DNA of 54,888 nucleotides from Anaerolineaceae bacterium (GTDB lineage: Bacteria; Chloroflexota; Anaerolineae; Anaerolineales; Anaerolineaceae): assembly GCA_019429225.1 (NCBI GenBank), contig JAHYJK010000005.1, forward strand, positions 1 through 54,888, given 5' to 3'. Positions 6,083 to 35,638 of this stretch are shown here, in pieces. Both the position numbers and the translations under genes were made by a program. A model generated the notes under the pieces. That model worked only from the letters and a program-made list of their open reading frames with translations. It searched no databases and was not told where the DNA came from. The stretch's first letter is position 1; every line of letters starts with the position of its first letter.

Positions 6083-7392
6083 ACAATATTTTTTTATTTT
6101 TAATTGATTTTTTTAGAAATTTTCACACTCAAATCATTATTGTTGAATTGATGTTTTGTATATTTCTTAAACCACGATTCAAAATTTATCCAATTATTTT
6201 TATAATTGGAGTATATTTGGCGATTCCATTTATATTTCCAAGTGTATATTTTTGGGAGGTTTTTGCGATAGGCAATTGGTTTACTTTTGGTTTTATCGCA
6301 ATGATGCTCTTGTCGTTAGGGGTTATATGGGCATGTTTTAAAATTTCTTCAATTAAAGAATTACTATTTTATGCTACTGCAGCAATAGTTGTACAGCATA
6401 TGGTTTATTCTATTGCAAGATCGATCCGGTTTGCATTTCATATAGAGTCGGGATTACATTATCAAATTGTAATTGTTGCTATATTTTTCATTATATACAC
6501 CCTGTTTTACCTGATTTTTGTTCGACGCTTTCAACACGATAATATAGCTGGTGTGAGAAGCGGACACATCATCGCCTTTATGTTTTTTGCATCTTTTTTT
6601 GTTTATATTTTCGGATTGTGGACGGGCAGGAACGAGCCACAAACACTGGGTTCATACATATTTGATTTGTTTTGTTGTGTTTTGCTTTTGTTACTTCATT
6701 TTGGTATGTTTGAAAGAAGTAAATTGGAAAAAGAAAATGAAATTATGATCCATTTGTTACACTTAGAAAAAGAAAAACATACATTGTCTGCGGAAAACAT
6801 TGAGATAATAAACATGAAATACCACGATTTAATTTATCAGATATCAGAATTGAAACTGTCAACCAATTCAGATAAACAAAAAGAAACCATCAATGAGTTG
6901 GAAATGGCAACAACAATATATGGCACGTCGGTAAAAACAGATAACGAAGCATTGGATGTTTTGTTATCGGAAAGAAGCTTATTTTGGAGCAAACATAACA
7001 TTAATTTTACCTGCATAGCTGATGGAAGCAAATTGAATTTTATGTCGCCGTCAGACACATATTCTATATTTGGTAATGCTCTTGACAACGCCATAGAAAG
7101 CGTAAAAAAGATTGATGATGAAGAAAAAAGGATAATTAGCCTTAAAGTCATCTCAAAAGGCAATTATGTAATCATTAATATATCCAATTACTTTGAACAT
7201 GAAATAGTTTTTGAAAATGGATTACCCGTTACAACGAAATCAGATAATCTATATCATGGTTACGGGATCAAAAGCATCAAATATTTAACTGAAAAGTATG
7301 GTGGGACGATGTCAATACAGTCTGAAAATGACATATTTAAATTAAATATCATTATTCCTATAAAAGAGGAAAAAGCAGAAGTAATAAAATAA
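6079..7392 (+). CDS. AgrC-like sensor histidine kinase (GHKL ATPase, multi-helix sensor)
   Basis: A 437-residue kinase. Residues 1 to about 210 form six or seven membrane helices, the sensor region typical of the AgrC/ComD peptide-sensing class. A dimerisation helix follows with His249 in 'MKYHDLIYQ', then a GHKL ATPase domain with an N box (GNALDNAIESVKK) and G box (HGYGIKSIKYL). It forms a pair with the LytTR regulator just upstream. No agrB or agrD-like peptide gene is seen beside it, so its signal is unknown and need not be a self-made peptide. The last ten codons and stop lie inside direct repeat copy 1, and the same 32 bases reappear after glf, showing where the repeat originated. Confidence 0.88.
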   Translation: MNNIFLFLIDFFRNFHTQIIIVELMFCIFLKPRFKIYPIIFIIGVYLAIPFIFPSVYFWEVFAIGNWFTFGFIAMMLLSLGVIWACFKISSIKELLFYATAAIVVQHMVYSIARSIRFAFHIESGLHYQIVIVAIFFIIYTLFYLIFVRRFQHDNIAGVRSGHIIAFMFFASFFVYIFGLWTGRNEPQTLGSYIFDLFCCVLLLLLHFGMFERSKLEKENEIMIHLLHLEKEKHTLSAENIEIINMKYHDLIYQISELKLSTNSDKQKETINELEMATTIYGTSVKTDNEALDVLLSERSLFWSKHNINFTCIADGSKLNFMSPSDTYSIFGNALDNAIESVKKIDDEEKRIISLKVISKGNYVIINISNYFEHEIVFENGLPVTTKSDNLYHGYGIKSIKYLTEKYGGTMSIQSENDIFKLNIIIPIKEEKAEVIK

Positions 7393-7395
7393 AGT

Positions 7396-7457
7396 AAACA
7401 ACCACAGGCTAAAAGAAGGGGAACTCACTTGCGTAAGGGAAACAACCACTTACGCAA
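7396..7457 (+). promoter_or_regulatory. Candidate regulatory leader with inverted and direct repeats before the GH3 lipoprotein
   Basis: Between the kinase stop and the lipoprotein gene there is a perfect 9-bp inverted repeat, TTGCGTAAG (7429-7437) and CTTACGCAA (7449-7457). There are also two copies of AAACAACCAC at 7396 and 7440, 44 bp apart or about four helical turns. No run of T follows the hairpin, so it is not an intrinsic terminator. It could be an operator or an RNA leader structure, and the LytTR regulator next door is the obvious candidate binder (inference). The same block is repeated at 15480-15541. Confidence 0.4.
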
Positions 7458-7584
7458 AATAAACAATAAAGCCGGATTATAAATGCTACTATCACCCAGA
7501 ATAGACTAAGTGTGTTTGGAAACATGTTCTCTAAACGCAGGCTATTTCACCACAGATCCGCAAAACAAACAAATAGGAGGAGAA

Positions 7585-10149
7585 ATGCAAAAAATACGTA
7601 GCAAACAATTATCGATATTGTTGGTGTTCGTGTTTCTGGCGAGCCTACTGGCAGGATGCGCAGGCGAAGCGACCCCGGTAGAGACAGCACCGACCACAGC
7701 ACCAGTCGAAGCGACGGCAGAACCAACCAAAGAGGTGGTCGTCGAAGAGCCGACTGAAGTAGTGGTAGAGCTCCCGGAATACCCAATGGAAGTTGAAGAG
7801 TTGGGAACCGGAGACGTGCTGTGGACAAAAGAGGAAACAGCCGATGGATGGACAAAAGTGACCAACGAAGGCGGAACAACCCTGGGATATACAAAAGGCG
7901 CAGGGTTAGAGCTAATCCAGGTGGACGGATACGCATTTAAAGATCTGAACAAGAATGGATTATTGGATCAACATGAAGACTGGCGATTAGAAACCGAATT
8001 AAGAGCAGCCAGTGCGGCAAAAGAAATATCAGTAGAACAGATGATGGGCTTAAAGATGAACCCATTCGGCATCGGAACAGCCAGTGCCGAAGAAGTAGAT
8101 GATACAACCAAGAACCTATTAAACCTGGGATATAGAGATTTGCGGTTCCCGGGAGGAAGTGTAGAAGTAAACGTTGGATGGAATAATAAAATTCAGGAAT
8201 ACATCGAAGGGCTTGATGGCATCGTTATCCCCGCGACCTATATCGCTGACCCATTAGGTAGTGGCGTATCAAAATGGCCAAACAACCTGGGATTTGCAGC
8301 AACATTTGATCCTGACGTAGCAGCTGAATTTGGAAGATTAATGTCAGAAGAATGGCGAGCAATGGGATTAACAATGCAGATCGCGACACAAATGGACCTG
8401 GCAACAGAACCAAGATGGCGTAGGATCACCGGCACATTCGGAGAAGATCCGGCATTATCGATGGATATGGCGGTTGCGACAGTAAACGGATTCCAATCAT
8501 CCTATGATGAAAACGGCAATGATCTAGGTTGGGGATCCACCAGTGTAAACTGCCAGATGAAACACTTTCCCGGAGATGGGGCAGCGGAAGCTGGACGAGA
8601 ATCACACACAGTAGATGGAAAATACACAGTATATCCCGGTGGGCAATTCTTCACACAAATTATGCCATTCGTAGCCTGCTTAGATTTACCAGGGAAGACA
8701 GAATCAGTATCAGCAGCGATGACAAATTACTCAATCGCACTGGATGCCAATGGCGAAGCAATTAGTGATGAACGGACCGGAACAAGCGTTAACAGCTGGA
8801 TAATCAATACCTTGTTACGAGACACCTATGGATTTGACGGCTATATCCTGACAGACTTTGGTGTAGTATGGAAAGCAGGCGAGAACCCAGGTGACCCGGC
8901 AGCAGGTGGAAGAACACACGGAACGGAAGATTGGACAGCAGTTGAACGTGAGTTAGCAATCCTGACAGCAGGGGTAGACGGATTTGGTGGAGAAGGACGC
9001 GCAGGACAGCCAGACGTCGACATGGCAATGGAAGTCTATGCGCTTGGTGTAGAAGAATTGGGCCAGGAAGCCATGGATCAAATCATGATCGATTCAACAA
9101 GAAGAACACTGGTAACGTTCTTCAACGTAGGCGTAGTGGACAATCCATATCTTGACTTAGAATATGCCAAAGCAGTGGTAAACAGTGAAGCAAATAATGC
9201 AGCAGGCTATGAAGCACAGCTAAAAGCAATCGTCATGGTGAAAAATAGTGACGGTATCATAGGAAAAGCAGCAGCAGAAAAACCGACAGTCTATATTCCA
9301 ATGAAATACACACCAGAATCACAAGGTCGTCGTGGAATAACACCGGCATCAGCAAAACCGGTAATAGATGTAGAAGTAGCGAGCGAGTATTACAACGTAG
9401 TAACAGATACAATATCCGAAACACTAACCGGACCGAATGATGCAGATGGCAAACCCACATTATCAGAAAACGATATTGTACGAGCATCAGCGGAAGAGAT
9501 AGCAGCATGTGATTTTGCACTGGTCAAGATAACCAGCCCACAAAACGGAACACCAACGAATGATGGAACGGTAGAAGATTATGTGTACTTACCGAGATCA
9601 TTACAATACGGGCCATACACAGCAGATTCACAATATGTACGGTTGGAATCGATTGGTGGTGATTACATCGTATCAACAGAAGAAAATGAATACGGGGAAA
9701 AGACAGTAGAAGAAAAAGAGAACCGCTCGTATTATGGTGAAAGTGCCATCATCACCAATACAGGAGATCTGGACTTAGTACTATATGCTGCATCAGTAGC
9801 CGAGAAGGTAGTTGTAGCAGTAGAACTAACAAACCCGATGATATTCTCAGAGTTTGAAAGTGAAGTAGATGCAATCGTTTTAGGGTTTGGAGTGACAGAC
9901 AAAGCCTATCTAGATATTATCAGTGGACAGGTAGAACCATCCGGTTTACTGCCAATGCAAATGCCAGCAAACATGGAAACAGTCGAAGCACAATTTGAAG
10001 ATGTGCCACGCGACATGGAATGTTATGTAGATAGTGCAGGAAACACATATGACTTCACATTTGGTCTGGATTGGTCAGGTGTAATCGATGATGCACGCGT
10101 AGCGAAGTACAATGTTGCTCCGCTGGTAGGTGTATCACCATTTGAATAA
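7585..10149 (+). CDS. Secreted GH3 glycosidase lipoprotein, copy 1
   Basis: The start is ATG 7585, preceded by AGGAGG at 7575-7580; the longer GTG frame from 7510 has no such support. The 854-residue product has a lipoprotein signal with lipobox LLAGC (Cys25), then a Thr/Pro/Glu-rich linker of the kind common in Chloroflexota lipoproteins. The GH3 catalytic part contains the segment 'FKDLNKNGLLDQHEDW', which resembles a calcium loop, the KHFPGDG motif and nucleophile Asp424 in 'GYILTDFG'. The C-terminal GH3 domain ends with 'FTFGLDWSG'. It should sit on the outer face of the membrane and cleave beta-glycosides; the exact sugar is not evident. Codons strongly prefer A in third position, unlike the AT-rich neighbours. 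The gene is duplicated exactly at 15669-18233. Confidence 0.88.
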   Translation: MQKIRSKQLSILLVFVFLASLLAGCAGEATPVETAPTTAPVEATAEPTKEVVVEEPTEVVVELPEYPMEVEELGTGDVLWTKEETADGWTKVTNEGGTTLGYTKGAGLELIQVDGYAFKDLNKNGLLDQHEDWRLETELRAASAAKEISVEQMMGLKMNPFGIGTASAEEVDDTTKNLLNLGYRDLRFPGGSVEVNVGWNNKIQEYIEGLDGIVIPATYIADPLGSGVSKWPNNLGFAATFDPDVAAEFGRLMSEEWRAMGLTMQIATQMDLATEPRWRRITGTFGEDPALSMDMAVATVNGFQSSYDENGNDLGWGSTSVNCQMKHFPGDGAAEAGRESHTVDGKYTVYPGGQFFTQIMPFVACLDLPGKTESVSAAMTNYSIALDANGEAISDERTGTSVNSWIINTLLRDTYGFDGYILTDFGVVWKAGENPGDPAAGGRTHGTEDWTAVERELAILTAGVDGFGGEGRAGQPDVDMAMEVYALGVEELGQEAMDQIMIDSTRRTLVTFFNVGVVDNPYLDLEYAKAVVNSEANNAAGYEAQLKAIVMVKNSDGIIGKAAAEKPTVYIPMKYTPESQGRRGITPASAKPVIDVEVASEYYNVVTDTISETLTGPNDADGKPTLSENDIVRASAEEIAACDFALVKITSPQNGTPTNDGTVEDYVYLPRSLQYGPYTADSQYVRLESIGGDYIVSTEENEYGEKTVEEKENRSYYGESAIITNTGDLDLVLYAASVAEKVVVAVELTNPMIFSEFESEVDAIVLGFGVTDKAYLDIISGQVEPSGLLPMQMPANMETVEAQFEDVPRDMECYVDSAGNTYDFTFGLDWSGVIDDARVAKYNVAPLVGVSPFE

Positions 10150-10185
10150 AAACTAAGAGATAGAAATACAATTAGATGTAACAAG

Positions 10186-10230
10186 CTGCCCGTTCCATAG
10201 TTGATGACAAATCAGCTACGGGATGGGCAG
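10186..10230 (+). terminator. Hairpin after GH3 lipoprotein copy 1
   Basis: Arms of 15 bases at 10186-10200 and 10216-10230 pair along their whole length with two or three G-U wobbles, around a 15-base loop. There is no T tract, so this is a 3'-end stabilising structure or factor-assisted terminator rather than a classical intrinsic terminator. It is copied at 18270-18314. Confidence 0.45.
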
Positions 10231-10279
10231 TGTAAATGAAAAGACAAGGCATCATAGAAGATATAAGGGAAAATGAAAC

Positions 10280-15432: not shown

Positions 15433-15668
15433 AGATAACCCAAGTAAAAGAGGAAAAAGCAGAAGTAATAAAATAAAGTAAACAACCACAGGCTAAAAGA
15501 AGGGGAACTCACTTGCGTAAGGGAAACAACCACTTACGCAAAATAAACAATAAAGCCGGATTATAAATGCTACTATCACCCAGAATAGACTAAGTGTGTT
15601 TGGAAACATGTTCTCTAAACGCAGGCTATTTCACCACAGATCCGCAAAACAAACAAATAGGAGGAGAA

Positions 15669-18233
15669 ATGCAAAAAATACGTAGCAAACAATTATCGAT
15701 ATTGTTGGTGTTCGTGTTTCTGGCGAGCCTACTGGCAGGATGCGCAGGCGAAGCGACCCCGGTAGAGACAGCACCGACCACAGCACCAGTCGAAGCGACG
15801 GCAGAACCAACCAAAGAGGTGGTCGTCGAAGAGCCGACTGAAGTAGTGGTAGAGCTCCCGGAATACCCAATGGAAGTTGAAGAGTTGGGAACCGGAGACG
15901 TGCTGTGGACAAAAGAGGAAACAGCCGATGGATGGACAAAAGTGACCAACGAAGGCGGAACAACCCTGGGATATACAAAAGGCGCAGGGTTAGAGCTAAT
16001 CCAGGTGGACGGATACGCATTTAAAGATCTGAACAAGAATGGATTATTGGATCAACATGAAGACTGGCGATTAGAAACCGAATTAAGAGCAGCCAGTGCG
16101 GCAAAAGAAATATCAGTAGAACAGATGATGGGCTTAAAGATGAACCCATTCGGCATCGGAACAGCCAGTGCCGAAGAAGTAGATGATACAACCAAGAACC
16201 TATTAAACCTGGGATATAGAGATTTGCGGTTCCCGGGAGGAAGTGTAGAAGTAAACGTTGGATGGAATAATAAAATTCAGGAATACATCGAAGGGCTTGA
16301 TGGCATCGTTATCCCCGCGACCTATATCGCTGACCCATTAGGTAGTGGCGTATCAAAATGGCCAAACAACCTGGGATTTGCAGCAACATTTGATCCTGAC
16401 GTAGCAGCTGAATTTGGAAGATTAATGTCAGAAGAATGGCGAGCAATGGGATTAACAATGCAGATCGCGACACAAATGGACCTGGCAACAGAACCAAGAT
16501 GGCGTAGGATCACCGGCACATTCGGAGAAGATCCGGCATTATCGATGGATATGGCGGTTGCGACAGTAAACGGATTCCAATCATCCTATGATGAAAACGG
16601 CAATGATCTAGGTTGGGGATCCACCAGTGTAAACTGCCAGATGAAACACTTTCCCGGAGATGGGGCAGCGGAAGCTGGACGAGAATCACACACAGTAGAT
16701 GGAAAATACACAGTATATCCCGGTGGGCAATTCTTCACACAAATTATGCCATTCGTAGCCTGCTTAGATTTACCAGGGAAGACAGAATCAGTATCAGCAG
16801 CGATGACAAATTACTCAATCGCACTGGATGCCAATGGCGAAGCAATTAGTGATGAACGGACCGGAACAAGCGTTAACAGCTGGATAATCAATACCTTGTT
16901 ACGAGACACCTATGGATTTGACGGCTATATCCTGACAGACTTTGGTGTAGTATGGAAAGCAGGCGAGAACCCAGGTGACCCGGCAGCAGGTGGAAGAACA
17001 CACGGAACGGAAGATTGGACAGCAGTTGAACGTGAGTTAGCAATCCTGACAGCAGGGGTAGACGGATTTGGTGGAGAAGGACGCGCAGGACAGCCAGACG
17101 TCGACATGGCAATGGAAGTCTATGCGCTTGGTGTAGAAGAATTGGGCCAGGAAGCCATGGATCAAATCATGATCGATTCAACAAGAAGAACACTGGTAAC
17201 GTTCTTCAACGTAGGCGTAGTGGACAATCCATATCTTGACTTAGAATATGCCAAAGCAGTGGTAAACAGTGAAGCAAATAATGCAGCAGGCTATGAAGCA
17301 CAGCTAAAAGCAATCGTCATGGTGAAAAATAGTGACGGTATCATAGGAAAAGCAGCAGCAGAAAAACCGACAGTCTATATTCCAATGAAATACACACCAG
17401 AATCACAAGGTCGTCGTGGAATAACACCGGCATCAGCAAAACCGGTAATAGATGTAGAAGTAGCGAGCGAGTATTACAACGTAGTAACAGATACAATATC
17501 CGAAACACTAACCGGACCGAATGATGCAGATGGCAAACCCACATTATCAGAAAACGATATTGTACGAGCATCAGCGGAAGAGATAGCAGCATGTGATTTT
17601 GCACTGGTCAAGATAACCAGCCCACAAAACGGAACACCAACGAATGATGGAACGGTAGAAGATTATGTGTACTTACCGAGATCATTACAATACGGGCCAT
17701 ACACAGCAGATTCACAATATGTACGGTTGGAATCGATTGGTGGTGATTACATCGTATCAACAGAAGAAAATGAATACGGGGAAAAGACAGTAGAAGAAAA
17801 AGAGAACCGCTCGTATTATGGTGAAAGTGCCATCATCACCAATACAGGAGATCTGGACTTAGTACTATATGCTGCATCAGTAGCCGAGAAGGTAGTTGTA
17901 GCAGTAGAACTAACAAACCCGATGATATTCTCAGAGTTTGAAAGTGAAGTAGATGCAATCGTTTTAGGGTTTGGAGTGACAGACAAAGCCTATCTAGATA
18001 TTATCAGTGGACAGGTAGAACCATCCGGTTTACTGCCAATGCAAATGCCAGCAAACATGGAAACAGTCGAAGCACAATTTGAAGATGTGCCACGCGACAT
18101 GGAATGTTATGTAGATAGTGCAGGAAACACATATGACTTCACATTTGGTCTGGATTGGTCAGGTGTAATCGATGATGCACGCGTAGCGAAGTACAATGTT
18201 GCTCCGCTGGTAGGTGTATCACCATTTGAATAA
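15669..18233 (+). CDS. Secreted GH3 glycosidase lipoprotein, copy 2
   Basis: Encodes a protein identical over all 854 residues to the gene at 7585-10149, with the same AGGAGG ribosome site, lipobox Cys25 and nucleophile Asp424. Absence of any amino-acid difference points to a recent duplication or continuing gene conversion between copies. It is also the kind of region a short-read assembly can mis-join, so copy number should be treated with some caution. It separates glf from the permuted GH3 gene and carries its own leader, so it is probably expressed independently of its position. Confidence 0.87.
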   Translation: MQKIRSKQLSILLVFVFLASLLAGCAGEATPVETAPTTAPVEATAEPTKEVVVEEPTEVVVELPEYPMEVEELGTGDVLWTKEETADGWTKVTNEGGTTLGYTKGAGLELIQVDGYAFKDLNKNGLLDQHEDWRLETELRAASAAKEISVEQMMGLKMNPFGIGTASAEEVDDTTKNLLNLGYRDLRFPGGSVEVNVGWNNKIQEYIEGLDGIVIPATYIADPLGSGVSKWPNNLGFAATFDPDVAAEFGRLMSEEWRAMGLTMQIATQMDLATEPRWRRITGTFGEDPALSMDMAVATVNGFQSSYDENGNDLGWGSTSVNCQMKHFPGDGAAEAGRESHTVDGKYTVYPGGQFFTQIMPFVACLDLPGKTESVSAAMTNYSIALDANGEAISDERTGTSVNSWIINTLLRDTYGFDGYILTDFGVVWKAGENPGDPAAGGRTHGTEDWTAVERELAILTAGVDGFGGEGRAGQPDVDMAMEVYALGVEELGQEAMDQIMIDSTRRTLVTFFNVGVVDNPYLDLEYAKAVVNSEANNAAGYEAQLKAIVMVKNSDGIIGKAAAEKPTVYIPMKYTPESQGRRGITPASAKPVIDVEVASEYYNVVTDTISETLTGPNDADGKPTLSENDIVRASAEEIAACDFALVKITSPQNGTPTNDGTVEDYVYLPRSLQYGPYTADSQYVRLESIGGDYIVSTEENEYGEKTVEEKENRSYYGESAIITNTGDLDLVLYAASVAEKVVVAVELTNPMIFSEFESEVDAIVLGFGVTDKAYLDIISGQVEPSGLLPMQMPANMETVEAQFEDVPRDMECYVDSAGNTYDFTFGLDWSGVIDDARVAKYNVAPLVGVSPFE

Positions 18234-18269
18234 AAACTAAGAGATAGAAATACAATTAGATGTAACAAG

Positions 18270-18314
18270 CTGCCCGTTCCATAGTTGATGACAAATCAGC
18301 TACGGGATGGGCAG
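18270..18314 (+). terminator. Hairpin after GH3 lipoprotein copy 2
   Basis: Same 15-base arms and loop as at 10186-10230, part of repeat copy 2. No T tract follows. The next gene starts about 50 bases downstream. Confidence 0.45.
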
Positions 18315-18362
18315 TGTAAATGAAAACGCTTATATGTGAGTAAAAGGTGTTGGAGGAAAAAA

Positions 18363-31442: not shown

Positions 31443-31919
31443 ATGAGGGTAGCTATTGTTATCAGTATTGCAGCTTTACTTATTGTTGCAGGAGCGTTAA
31501 TGGTGGCAACTGATTTTACTGCCTACCTGGGTAGTAACCCGGTCACCTGTAATAATTGCCACCTGATGGATGCTGCCTACGAAGGCTGGTATCACGCTGC
31601 GCATTCCTCCTGGGCAACCTGTGTGGATTGTCATGCTCCCCATGCATTTGTGCCCAAATACCTTTTCAAGGCATATTCCGGATACCGCCATGTAACCGGT
31701 TTTTTGTTCAAGGAGCATCCTACGATCCTGCGCGCCATTCCGCTATCCAAAGACATTATCCATGAAAATTGTATTGGCTGCCATGAAACAGCTGTAGAAG
31801 ACATTGCCTTTGGTGCAATGGATGAGGGACGCTATTGCTTTGATTGTCATCGCACCATTGCCCACGGTGAACGCGGAATATCCATATTACCTTATCGAGA
31901 TCAGGAGACAGATAGATGA
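31443..31919 (+). CDS. nrfH: Cytochrome c nitrite reductase small subunit (NrfH/NapC type)
   Basis: A 158-residue tetraheme quinol dehydrogenase: one N-terminal membrane anchor (about 3-25), then four CxxCH haem sites (CNNCH, CVDCH, CIGCH, CFDCH). NrfH takes electrons from menaquinol and hands them to NrfA outside the membrane. The length and haem count fit the family. The ribosome site GAGGGAAAAGG precedes ATG 31443, and the stop overlaps the nrfA start by four bases. Confidence 0.95.
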   Translation: MRVAIVISIAALLIVAGALMVATDFTAYLGSNPVTCNNCHLMDAAYEGWYHAAHSSWATCVDCHAPHAFVPKYLFKAYSGYRHVTGFLFKEHPTILRAIPLSKDIIHENCIGCHETAVEDIAFGAMDEGRYCFDCHRTIAHGERGISILPYRDQETDR

Positions 31920-33223
31920 TAAAAAAGATTTCACCCATTACGATTTTGAGTGTAACAATTGCCATACTGGTAGTCGCTGTGATCGGGTTGTTATGGTTCA
32001 TCCAATCACAACCGGATCCCATTCGAGGTATTCCGCCGTTGACAGACATCTCTCCCATGGAACCCGATTCTTCCGTCTGGGGTGTTAATTTTCCCAATCA
32101 GTATTCCACATTTTTATTAACGGCTGAAAACAACACTCGCACTGCATTTGCCGGGTCACAGCCATTCCAGAAGCTGGAGTGGGATCCGCGCCTGGTGACA
32201 CTCTGGGTCAATTACGGATTCAGTAAAGATTATAAAGAAGATCGTGGTCATATGCATTCCATAACAGATGTTGAGGAAACCTTGCGAACGACGGACACCT
32301 CCGCTGGCACCTGTTATTCCTGTAAAAGCGCTAATAATATTGAACTATGGAATGAGATGGGAGCAGCCAAATTTGCCAGCACACCATTCGGTGTTCTTGG
32401 AAAACAAATCACTGAACCCATCGGATGTGTAAACTGTCATGATTCCACCAGTATGCGATTGGTCGTCACCAACCCGGCTTTGGAAAATGCATTGGAGGAG
32501 CAAGGAAAGGATTGGCGCACTTTTTCGAGGCAGGAGATGCGTTCCCTGGTTTGTGCCAATTGCCATGTTGAATATTATTTTGCCGGGGAAGGCAATCTAT
32601 TGACGTTCCCATGGGATAATGGCACCAAAATTGAGGAAATTGCTGCCTACTACCAGGAGATAGAATTTAGTGATTGGGTACACGCTGAATCCGGGGCAAA
32701 TATGATCAAGATGCAACATCCAGATTACGAACTCTTCACCGCGGATAGCACCCACTACAAAGCCGGTGTTGCCTGTGCCGATTGCCATATGCCTTACACC
32801 AAAGATGGAGCTGCCAAGTTCTCCAACCACAATATGCGTAGCCCATTGATCGAGCCAGAAGCCACATGCGGCACATGCCACACCAGCGTAACTTACGTAA
32901 CCGAGCGCGTTGCGATCATTCAACAGCAAGTATGGGACACGATGGATGCAACTGAAGATGCACTCGTAGACGCGATCAATACAATAGCAACTGCATCCGA
33001 GGTTGCGGGGGTGGATCCAGAATTGTTGGCCGAAGCACGTAATTTGCACCGCGAATCACAATTGCGTTGGGACTTCATCTCCGCCGAAAGCAGCATGGGC
33101 TTCCACAATCCTTCCGAAGCCTTACGCATTCTGGCTGTCGCCACCGATTTAGCCCGTCAGGCGCAACTCAAAGCCATCGAAGCCACCGGGCAGGGATTGG
33201 ATATTCAGGTAAGGACACCATAA
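31916..33223 (+). CDS. nrfA: Ammonia-forming cytochrome c nitrite reductase catalytic subunit
   Basis: A 435-residue pentahaem enzyme that reduces nitrite to ammonium with six electrons. An N-terminal hydrophobic helix acts as signal or anchor. The active-site haem is bound by the special CxxCK motif, Cys133-Cys136-Lys137 (CYSCK), followed by four CxxCH sites (CVNCH, CANCH, CADCH, CGTCH). 'KAGVACADCHMPYTKDG' and 'NHNMRSPL' carry the expected calcium and distal-His surroundings. Translationally coupled to nrfH. It allows nitrite detoxification or respiration (DNRA), consistent with an anaerobe. A strong terminator follows. Confidence 0.96.
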   Translation: MIKKISPITILSVTIAILVVAVIGLLWFIQSQPDPIRGIPPLTDISPMEPDSSVWGVNFPNQYSTFLLTAENNTRTAFAGSQPFQKLEWDPRLVTLWVNYGFSKDYKEDRGHMHSITDVEETLRTTDTSAGTCYSCKSANNIELWNEMGAAKFASTPFGVLGKQITEPIGCVNCHDSTSMRLVVTNPALENALEEQGKDWRTFSRQEMRSLVCANCHVEYYFAGEGNLLTFPWDNGTKIEEIAAYYQEIEFSDWVHAESGANMIKMQHPDYELFTADSTHYKAGVACADCHMPYTKDGAAKFSNHNMRSPLIEPEATCGTCHTSVTYVTERVAIIQQQVWDTMDATEDALVDAINTIATASEVAGVDPELLAEARNLHRESQLRWDFISAESSMGFHNPSEALRILAVATDLARQAQLKAIEATGQGLDIQVRTP

Positions 33224-35161: not shown

Positions 35162-35638
35162 TTGGCAAGACAGAAGAAGAGCAAACAAAAAATAGATCCA
35201 TCCATCTGGGTGATCCTGATTGGTGGGTTAATGTTGCTGGTGGCTGTGGTGGTGCTGGTTATTCAGGCGCAACAACCTGCGCAATCAGCTGTGGCTACCC
35301 AAAACCCATTTATCCCTTATAAAGAAGTGGAACGAGTGGCAGTTCAGGATGCCAAAGCAGCGTATGATGCTGGCACCGCTGTGTTTGTAGACGTGCGGGG
35401 AGATGAGCTATATAACATCGGTCATATTCCGGGTGCAATCTCCATCGCTGATACTGAAATGGAGACTCGCTTTACCGAGCTCGACCCCAACGCCTGGATC
35501 ATCACCTACTGTACCTGACCGGCTGAAGAATCCAGCGCCCGTGCGGCGTTAACTTTAATAGCGAATGGATTTTCCAACGTCAGCGCCCTCCAAGGTGGTT
35601 TGGCACTCTGGCAGCAGAGTGGCTATCCGATGGAGTGA
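35162..35638 (+). CDS. Membrane-anchored rhodanese, candidate selenoprotein (UGA = Sec119)
   Basis: Starts at TTG 35162 with AGGAG at 35151-35155. Residues 15-34 form a membrane anchor, followed by a rhodanese domain (VFVDVRGDELYNIGHIPGA). The domain reaches its active-site loop at 'WIITYCT' and there meets TGA (35516-35518). The same frame stays open for 39 more codons encoding the rest of a rhodanese (PAEESSARAALTLIANG, SALQGGLALWQQSGYP), ending at TGA 35636-35638. Rhodanese relatives with a YCxCP loop have cysteine at exactly the UGA position, as far as I recall. A fitting bacterial SECIS hairpin lies 21 bases downstream. I therefore read UGA as selenocysteine in a 158-residue protein. The alternative is a single nonsense mutation leaving a 118-residue pseudogene. 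Confidence 0.7.
35534..35550 (+). promoter_or_regulatory. Candidate bacterial SECIS hairpin for the rhodanese UGA
   Basis: A six-pair stem (35534-35539 with 35545-35550, one G-U pair) closes a five-base loop CGTGC. The loop starts 22 bases after the UGA and has a G in its second position. As I know the bacterial SECIS model, it asks for a G in the first two loop bases and an apical loop about 16-37 bases from the UGA; both hold. Confidence 0.5.

Follow-up and report, generated by a model that had tools for sequence, protein, structure and literature searches.

The window, a stretch of 54,888 nucleotides from an Anaerolineaceae bacterium, carries on its forward strand a rhodanese reading frame that begins at a TTG codon (35162) preceded by an AAGGAG-type ribosome site and ends at a UGA stop (35636-35638). 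A second UGA lies in frame, with 39 codons between it and the terminal one. The sequence-only reading had described this frame as running those 39 codons without a frameshift, and its coordinates, the residue number 119, and the hairpin spacing all proved right. The 3' end of the gene falls at about the same place as in its relatives. The features considered here are the following.

35162..35635, forward strand: putative selenoprotein coding region of 158 residues with a TTG start, an open frame if the UGA is read through
35198..35269, forward strand: codons of a predicted N-terminal transmembrane helix, residues 13-36 (AlphaFold helix; hydropathy)
35318..35635, forward strand: rhodanese domain, approximately residues 53-158 (Pfam, AlphaFold pLDDT, Foldseek)
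35510..35512, forward strand: TGT codon of Cys117 (profile alignment with the catalytic Cys of GlpE; UGA in six relatives)
35516..35518, forward strand: in-frame UGA, very likely the selenocysteine (Sec) codon of residue 119 (58 loci with UGA here; Cys in three relatives)
35534..35550, forward strand: putative bacterial SECIS hairpin (near-invariant third codon positions, compensatory pairs, absence in relatives that do not carry Sec, single genomic occurrence)

Genes for cytochromes of the nrfH-nrfA type, which reduce nitrite to ammonia, lie 2 kb upstream at 31443-33223 of the window and are also found at one relative's locus (L052). Elsewhere in the window, about 2.9 kb of sequence (7361-10242) recurs base for base as a direct repeat at 15445-18326. 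The repeat holds an ORF of 879 residues whose start resembles that of a lipoprotein, and it represents either a recent duplication or an assembly artefact.

Predicted anchor, rhodanese domain, and active-site loop

The assignment of the protein to the rhodaneses draws on both sequence and structure comparisons. Residues 62-152 match the Pfam Rhodanese family (PF00581) with 59.9 bits, well over the gathering cut-off of 22.2, and the matches listed by Foldseek against the PDB are rhodanese domains, the best with an E value of 1.6e-9. AlphaFold, run on the window protein and on nine relatives, predicts a helix at residues 13-36 and then a domain whose pLDDT exceeds 90 beyond about residue 60; the pTM is 0.67. 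Mean hydropathy over residues 15-33 of the window protein is 3.14, so that the membrane anchor proposed by the sequence-only reading is supported. The placement of the domain on the outer side, also proposed there, is a prediction: because a net charge of +4 falls within the first 15 residues, ahead of the transmembrane helix, and because paralogues of relatives have lipobox-like N termini (for example LLTALACN in L064), these features suggest that the rhodanese domain lies outside the cytoplasmic membrane.

The UGA occurs in the context WIITYCTUPAEESSARAA, giving the motif Y-C117-T-U119-P. In a profile alignment with Escherichia coli GlpE, C117 falls on the active-site Cys of GlpE while T118-U119 forms a two-residue insertion. 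By this alignment the canonical catalytic Cys is C117, with the predicted Sec119 two residues further on. The earlier assignment of the UGA to the active-site position thus holds for the loop, which is two residues longer than that of GlpE, but not for the catalytic residue itself. The window protein shares its fold and the position of the catalytic Cys with GlpE and other single-domain rhodaneses, and differs from GlpE in the longer active-site loop, with Sec in the extra part, and in the membrane anchor.

Relatives carrying UGA at the same site

Relatives were drawn from 301 genomes of the phylum and from a scan of species genomes. UGA at exactly this position was read in 58 loci including the window, the 57 others all from Chloroflexota, and these represent 53 distinct DNA contexts; among 38 aligned relatives, protein identity to the window ranges from 85% down to about 32%. 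The canonical Cys is kept in 52 of the 58 loci (CxU) and is replaced by Sec alone in the remaining six (UxU). Cys, for which the sequence-only reading had proposed to look, stands at the Sec position in three homologues (CxC in L120, L121, and L094), so that a conserved UGA is paired with Cys elsewhere in the family, the pattern by which selenoprotein genes are recognized. Up to three copies of the Sec rhodanese occur in one genome (G005). Other rhodanese stretches in the window genome (L123-L127) are all more distant and contain no UGA.

One group of homologues carries neither Cys nor Sec at the site. It had been suggested that another residue there in close relatives would speak against selenocysteine, and 13 rows of one family (f23: L038-L040, L044-L048, L050, L093, L095, L101, and L102) do have YGDA, YGDS, or YSDA. 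They are, however, not close relatives, and the catalytic Cys is lost along with the Sec; selB is retained in most of these genomes. With a long branch of its own (0.99 changes per column on the tree), f23 seems to be a derived group whose activity is different or absent, and it does not contradict Sec in the window protein.

In the six UxU loci (L037:1501-1815, L049:1501-1845, L068, L069, L072, and L082), the first UGA takes the canonical catalytic Cys position and the second follows two codons on, as UGA-ACY-UGA, UGA-GCC-UGA, or UGA-ACA-UGA. One hairpin is seen in each of these genes, 27 and 21 nt from its two UGAs, which are six bases apart. On the tree the UxU form calls for three changes, at least two of them on well-supported branches; the placement of L082 is unsure because its branch is long. 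Other Chloroflexota rhodaneses show UGA at other sites of the loop: in four loci (L070, L079, L083, and L092) it lies five residues after the catalytic position, as in FYCSGSTUGES, and in L086 it occupies the catalytic position itself (YUNMQHRG).

The breadth of this conservation bears on whether the UGA is simply a true stop, leaving a truncated protein of 118 residues, or else marks a pseudogene or a sequencing error. In favor of such a reading, UGA is an ordinary stop in the window genome and serves as this gene's own terminator. Yet the stretch after the UGA has Pfam and fold similarity and is conserved in the 57 other loci that share this UGA, and in the AlphaFold model a product ending there would be left without the rhodanese active-site helix. 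Over the 39 codons after the UGA, dN is 0.12-0.14 and dS 0.25-0.55 between the window and its two closest relatives, and 0.07 and 0.46 between those two relatives, values that come from small counts and in which dS itself is depressed by the hairpin; dN lies below dS throughout. A true stop is therefore very improbable.

The downstream hairpin and the decoding machinery

The putative SECIS element consists of AGCGCC (35534-35539), the loop CGUGC (35540-35544), and GGCGUU (35545-35550). Published limits on spacing, loop, and stem of bacterial SECIS elements (PMC13188914) are a distance of 16-37 nt, a loop of 3-9 nt with G as its first or second base, and a stem of 4-16 bp; the window hairpin, with 21 nt from UGA to loop, a 5-nt loop, G at loop position 2, and a 6-bp stem, falls within each of them. 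Its fit to the bacterial model in spacing and loop, noticed from the single sequence, is thereby borne out and is extended by covariation among relatives. Fold stability of the lone window hairpin is not unusual against shuffles (z = 0.20), and single-sequence stability was discarded as evidence; the case for the hairpin is therefore taken from the comparison of relatives.

That comparison reveals constraint at the level of the nucleotides. Codons 6-10 after the UGA are AGC, GCC, CGU, GCG, and GCG in 50, 49, 47, 41, and 48 of the 53 contexts, respectively, and each of these makes up only 17-26% of the codons for its amino acid in the window's neighboring genes. Third-position identity is 94-100% over these five codons, against mostly 36-66% in the remainder of the downstream stretch. 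The loop is 5 nt, reading CGUGC in most contexts. Five core pairs are paired in 261 of 265 cells, compared with 57-159 cells for slid stems used as a control, and two-sided changes that keep the pair occur in 5 cells, a number reached by none of 2000 shuffles (average 0.15). The compensated cells are in L028 (two pairs, with Ser recoded from AGC to TCA), L037, L082, and L090. Relatives that lack Sec, with Cys or another residue in its place, retain only one to three of the five pairs; L120 is one of them, even though it retains Ser-Ala-Arg at that place. The core sequence occurs once in the window genome at up to one mismatch.

The genome of the window (4.2 Mb in 368 contigs, 98% complete with 4% contamination) also encodes the machinery for Sec insertion, and the four genes for which a search had been proposed, selA, selB, selC, and selD, are all present. 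The selC product scores 69.9 bits as tRNA-Sec, over the family cut-off, and is called by ARAGORN as tRNA-SeC with anticodon tca (UCA); selB scores 342.5 bits; selA is split into two contig-end pieces that together span the model. The selD gene (L018:1408-2469; 352 bits) has an in-frame UGA of its own within CAGUASK, which we take to be the usual Sec site of SelD, and is thus a second predicted selenoprotein gene of this genome; Sec decoding of UGA therefore appears not to be confined to the window gene. Across the sampled genomes, selB exceeds the cut-off in 62 of 67; as nearly all carry it, its presence or absence was dropped as a discriminator. No selB match over the cut-off was found in two genomes with Sec-bearing relatives, G129 and G197, which are only 82-83% complete; G129 (82%) is one of the six UxU genomes.

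The same observations bear on the proposal that readthrough of the UGA inserts Trp or some other selenium-free residue. The frame of such a protein would look identical, but Cys is found at the site in a few relatives, Trp at the position of residue 119 in none of those read, and the full Sec machinery accompanies a hairpin that both covaries and agrees with the SECIS model, making readthrough of this kind scarcely credible. Because the UGA is conserved, the SECIS-like hairpin covaries, the decoding genes are present, and the hairpin is lost in relatives without Sec, the window gene is very likely a selenoprotein gene, with selenocysteine inserted at UGA 35516, as the sequence-only reading had proposed.

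Possible chemistry and place among known families

In the most likely role that can be envisaged, SelB and tRNA-Sec would decode UGA 35516 as Sec under the direction of the hairpin 21 nt downstream, and the single-pass anchored rhodanese would act on the outer side of the cytoplasmic membrane as a redox sulfurtransferase that relies on two residues, Cys and Sec. Sulfane sulfur would be taken up on Cys117 as a persulfide and resolved by Sec119, giving a C-U selenenylsulfide that a partner would then reduce. The sulfurtransfer chemistry, considered by itself, has about an even chance of being correct. A serious rival, possible rather than probable, accepts the same reading of Sec and differs in the chemistry alone: the rhodanese scaffold would serve a thiol-redox enzyme, active in disulfide or peroxide reduction or in metal or selenium handling, instead of a sulfurtransferase. 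The CxU motif resembles the redox pairs of Cys and Sec found in other selenoproteins, the sulfur-carrying Cys is itself replaced in the UxU relatives, and genes for a P-type ATPase or FeoB adjoin some relatives, all of which accord with a plain thiol-redox role; the retention of the canonical rhodanese Cys in 52 of the 58 Sec loci, with Sec as its sole substitute, favors the redox sulfurtransferase. A neighborhood of nrfHA, a small membrane protein, and pdxST is shared among the closest relatives only, while elsewhere the neighbors vary (P-type ATPase, FeoB, M3 peptidase, FAD-linked oxidase). Because they differ in this way, the neighbors do not indicate a substrate, and gene neighborhood was rejected as a guide to function.

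The sequence-only reading had called this a new selenoprotein, which is too strong. A CxU rhodanese selenoprotein has been listed as "rhodanese-like protein form 3," traced to Zhang and Gladyshev 2005 (PMC13188914, PMC9312934). The corresponding NCBIfam family, NF041203 (rhodanese_LYCAU, rhodanese-related (seleno)protein), gives the window protein its best match and shares with it the domain and the CxU motif, with Sec two residues past the catalytic Cys. The alignment spans the entire domain, from residues 51-158 of the window protein to positions 15-124 of 126, and YCTUP supplies the Sec or Cys expected two residues after the catalytic Cys, but the score of 73.3 bits (E 1.4e-20) lies below the cut-off of 115; the window protein therefore counts as a divergent relative that has the motif in common, and not as a formal member. 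All 38 aligned relatives match NF041203 with E values of 1e-10 or better. The window protein and its relatives differ from that family in the N-terminal transmembrane anchor ahead of the matched part, a CTUPxE motif, a shared SECIS, and the UxU variants. Other known rhodanese selenoproteins, forms 1, 2, and 4 (UxxS, UxxG) and TsoB (UxxxxU) (PMC13188914), likewise carry Sec in a rhodanese domain, with Sec motifs that differ from CxU; the match of the window protein to the TsoB profile is weak, at 22.6 bits where the cut-off is 805. No report of a Chloroflexota or UxU rhodanese selenoprotein was found in the literature searched, the coverage of which was partial.

On balance, a large and divergent clade of Sec rhodaneses, often extracytoplasmic, would seem to exist in Chloroflexota beyond the curated CxU family. 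In some of its lineages the sulfur-carrying Cys and the residue that resolves it would both have become Sec (UxU), and one hairpin would direct the two insertions. Sec rhodaneses are common across this phylum, and standard gene calling would truncate their genes. A hairpin kept so strictly across divergent proteins offers a clean natural case for the study of SelB recognition in Chloroflexota, and the UxU relatives bear both on whether one SECIS serves two neighboring UGAs and on what benefit selenium may bring at the sulfur-carrying position of a rhodanese.
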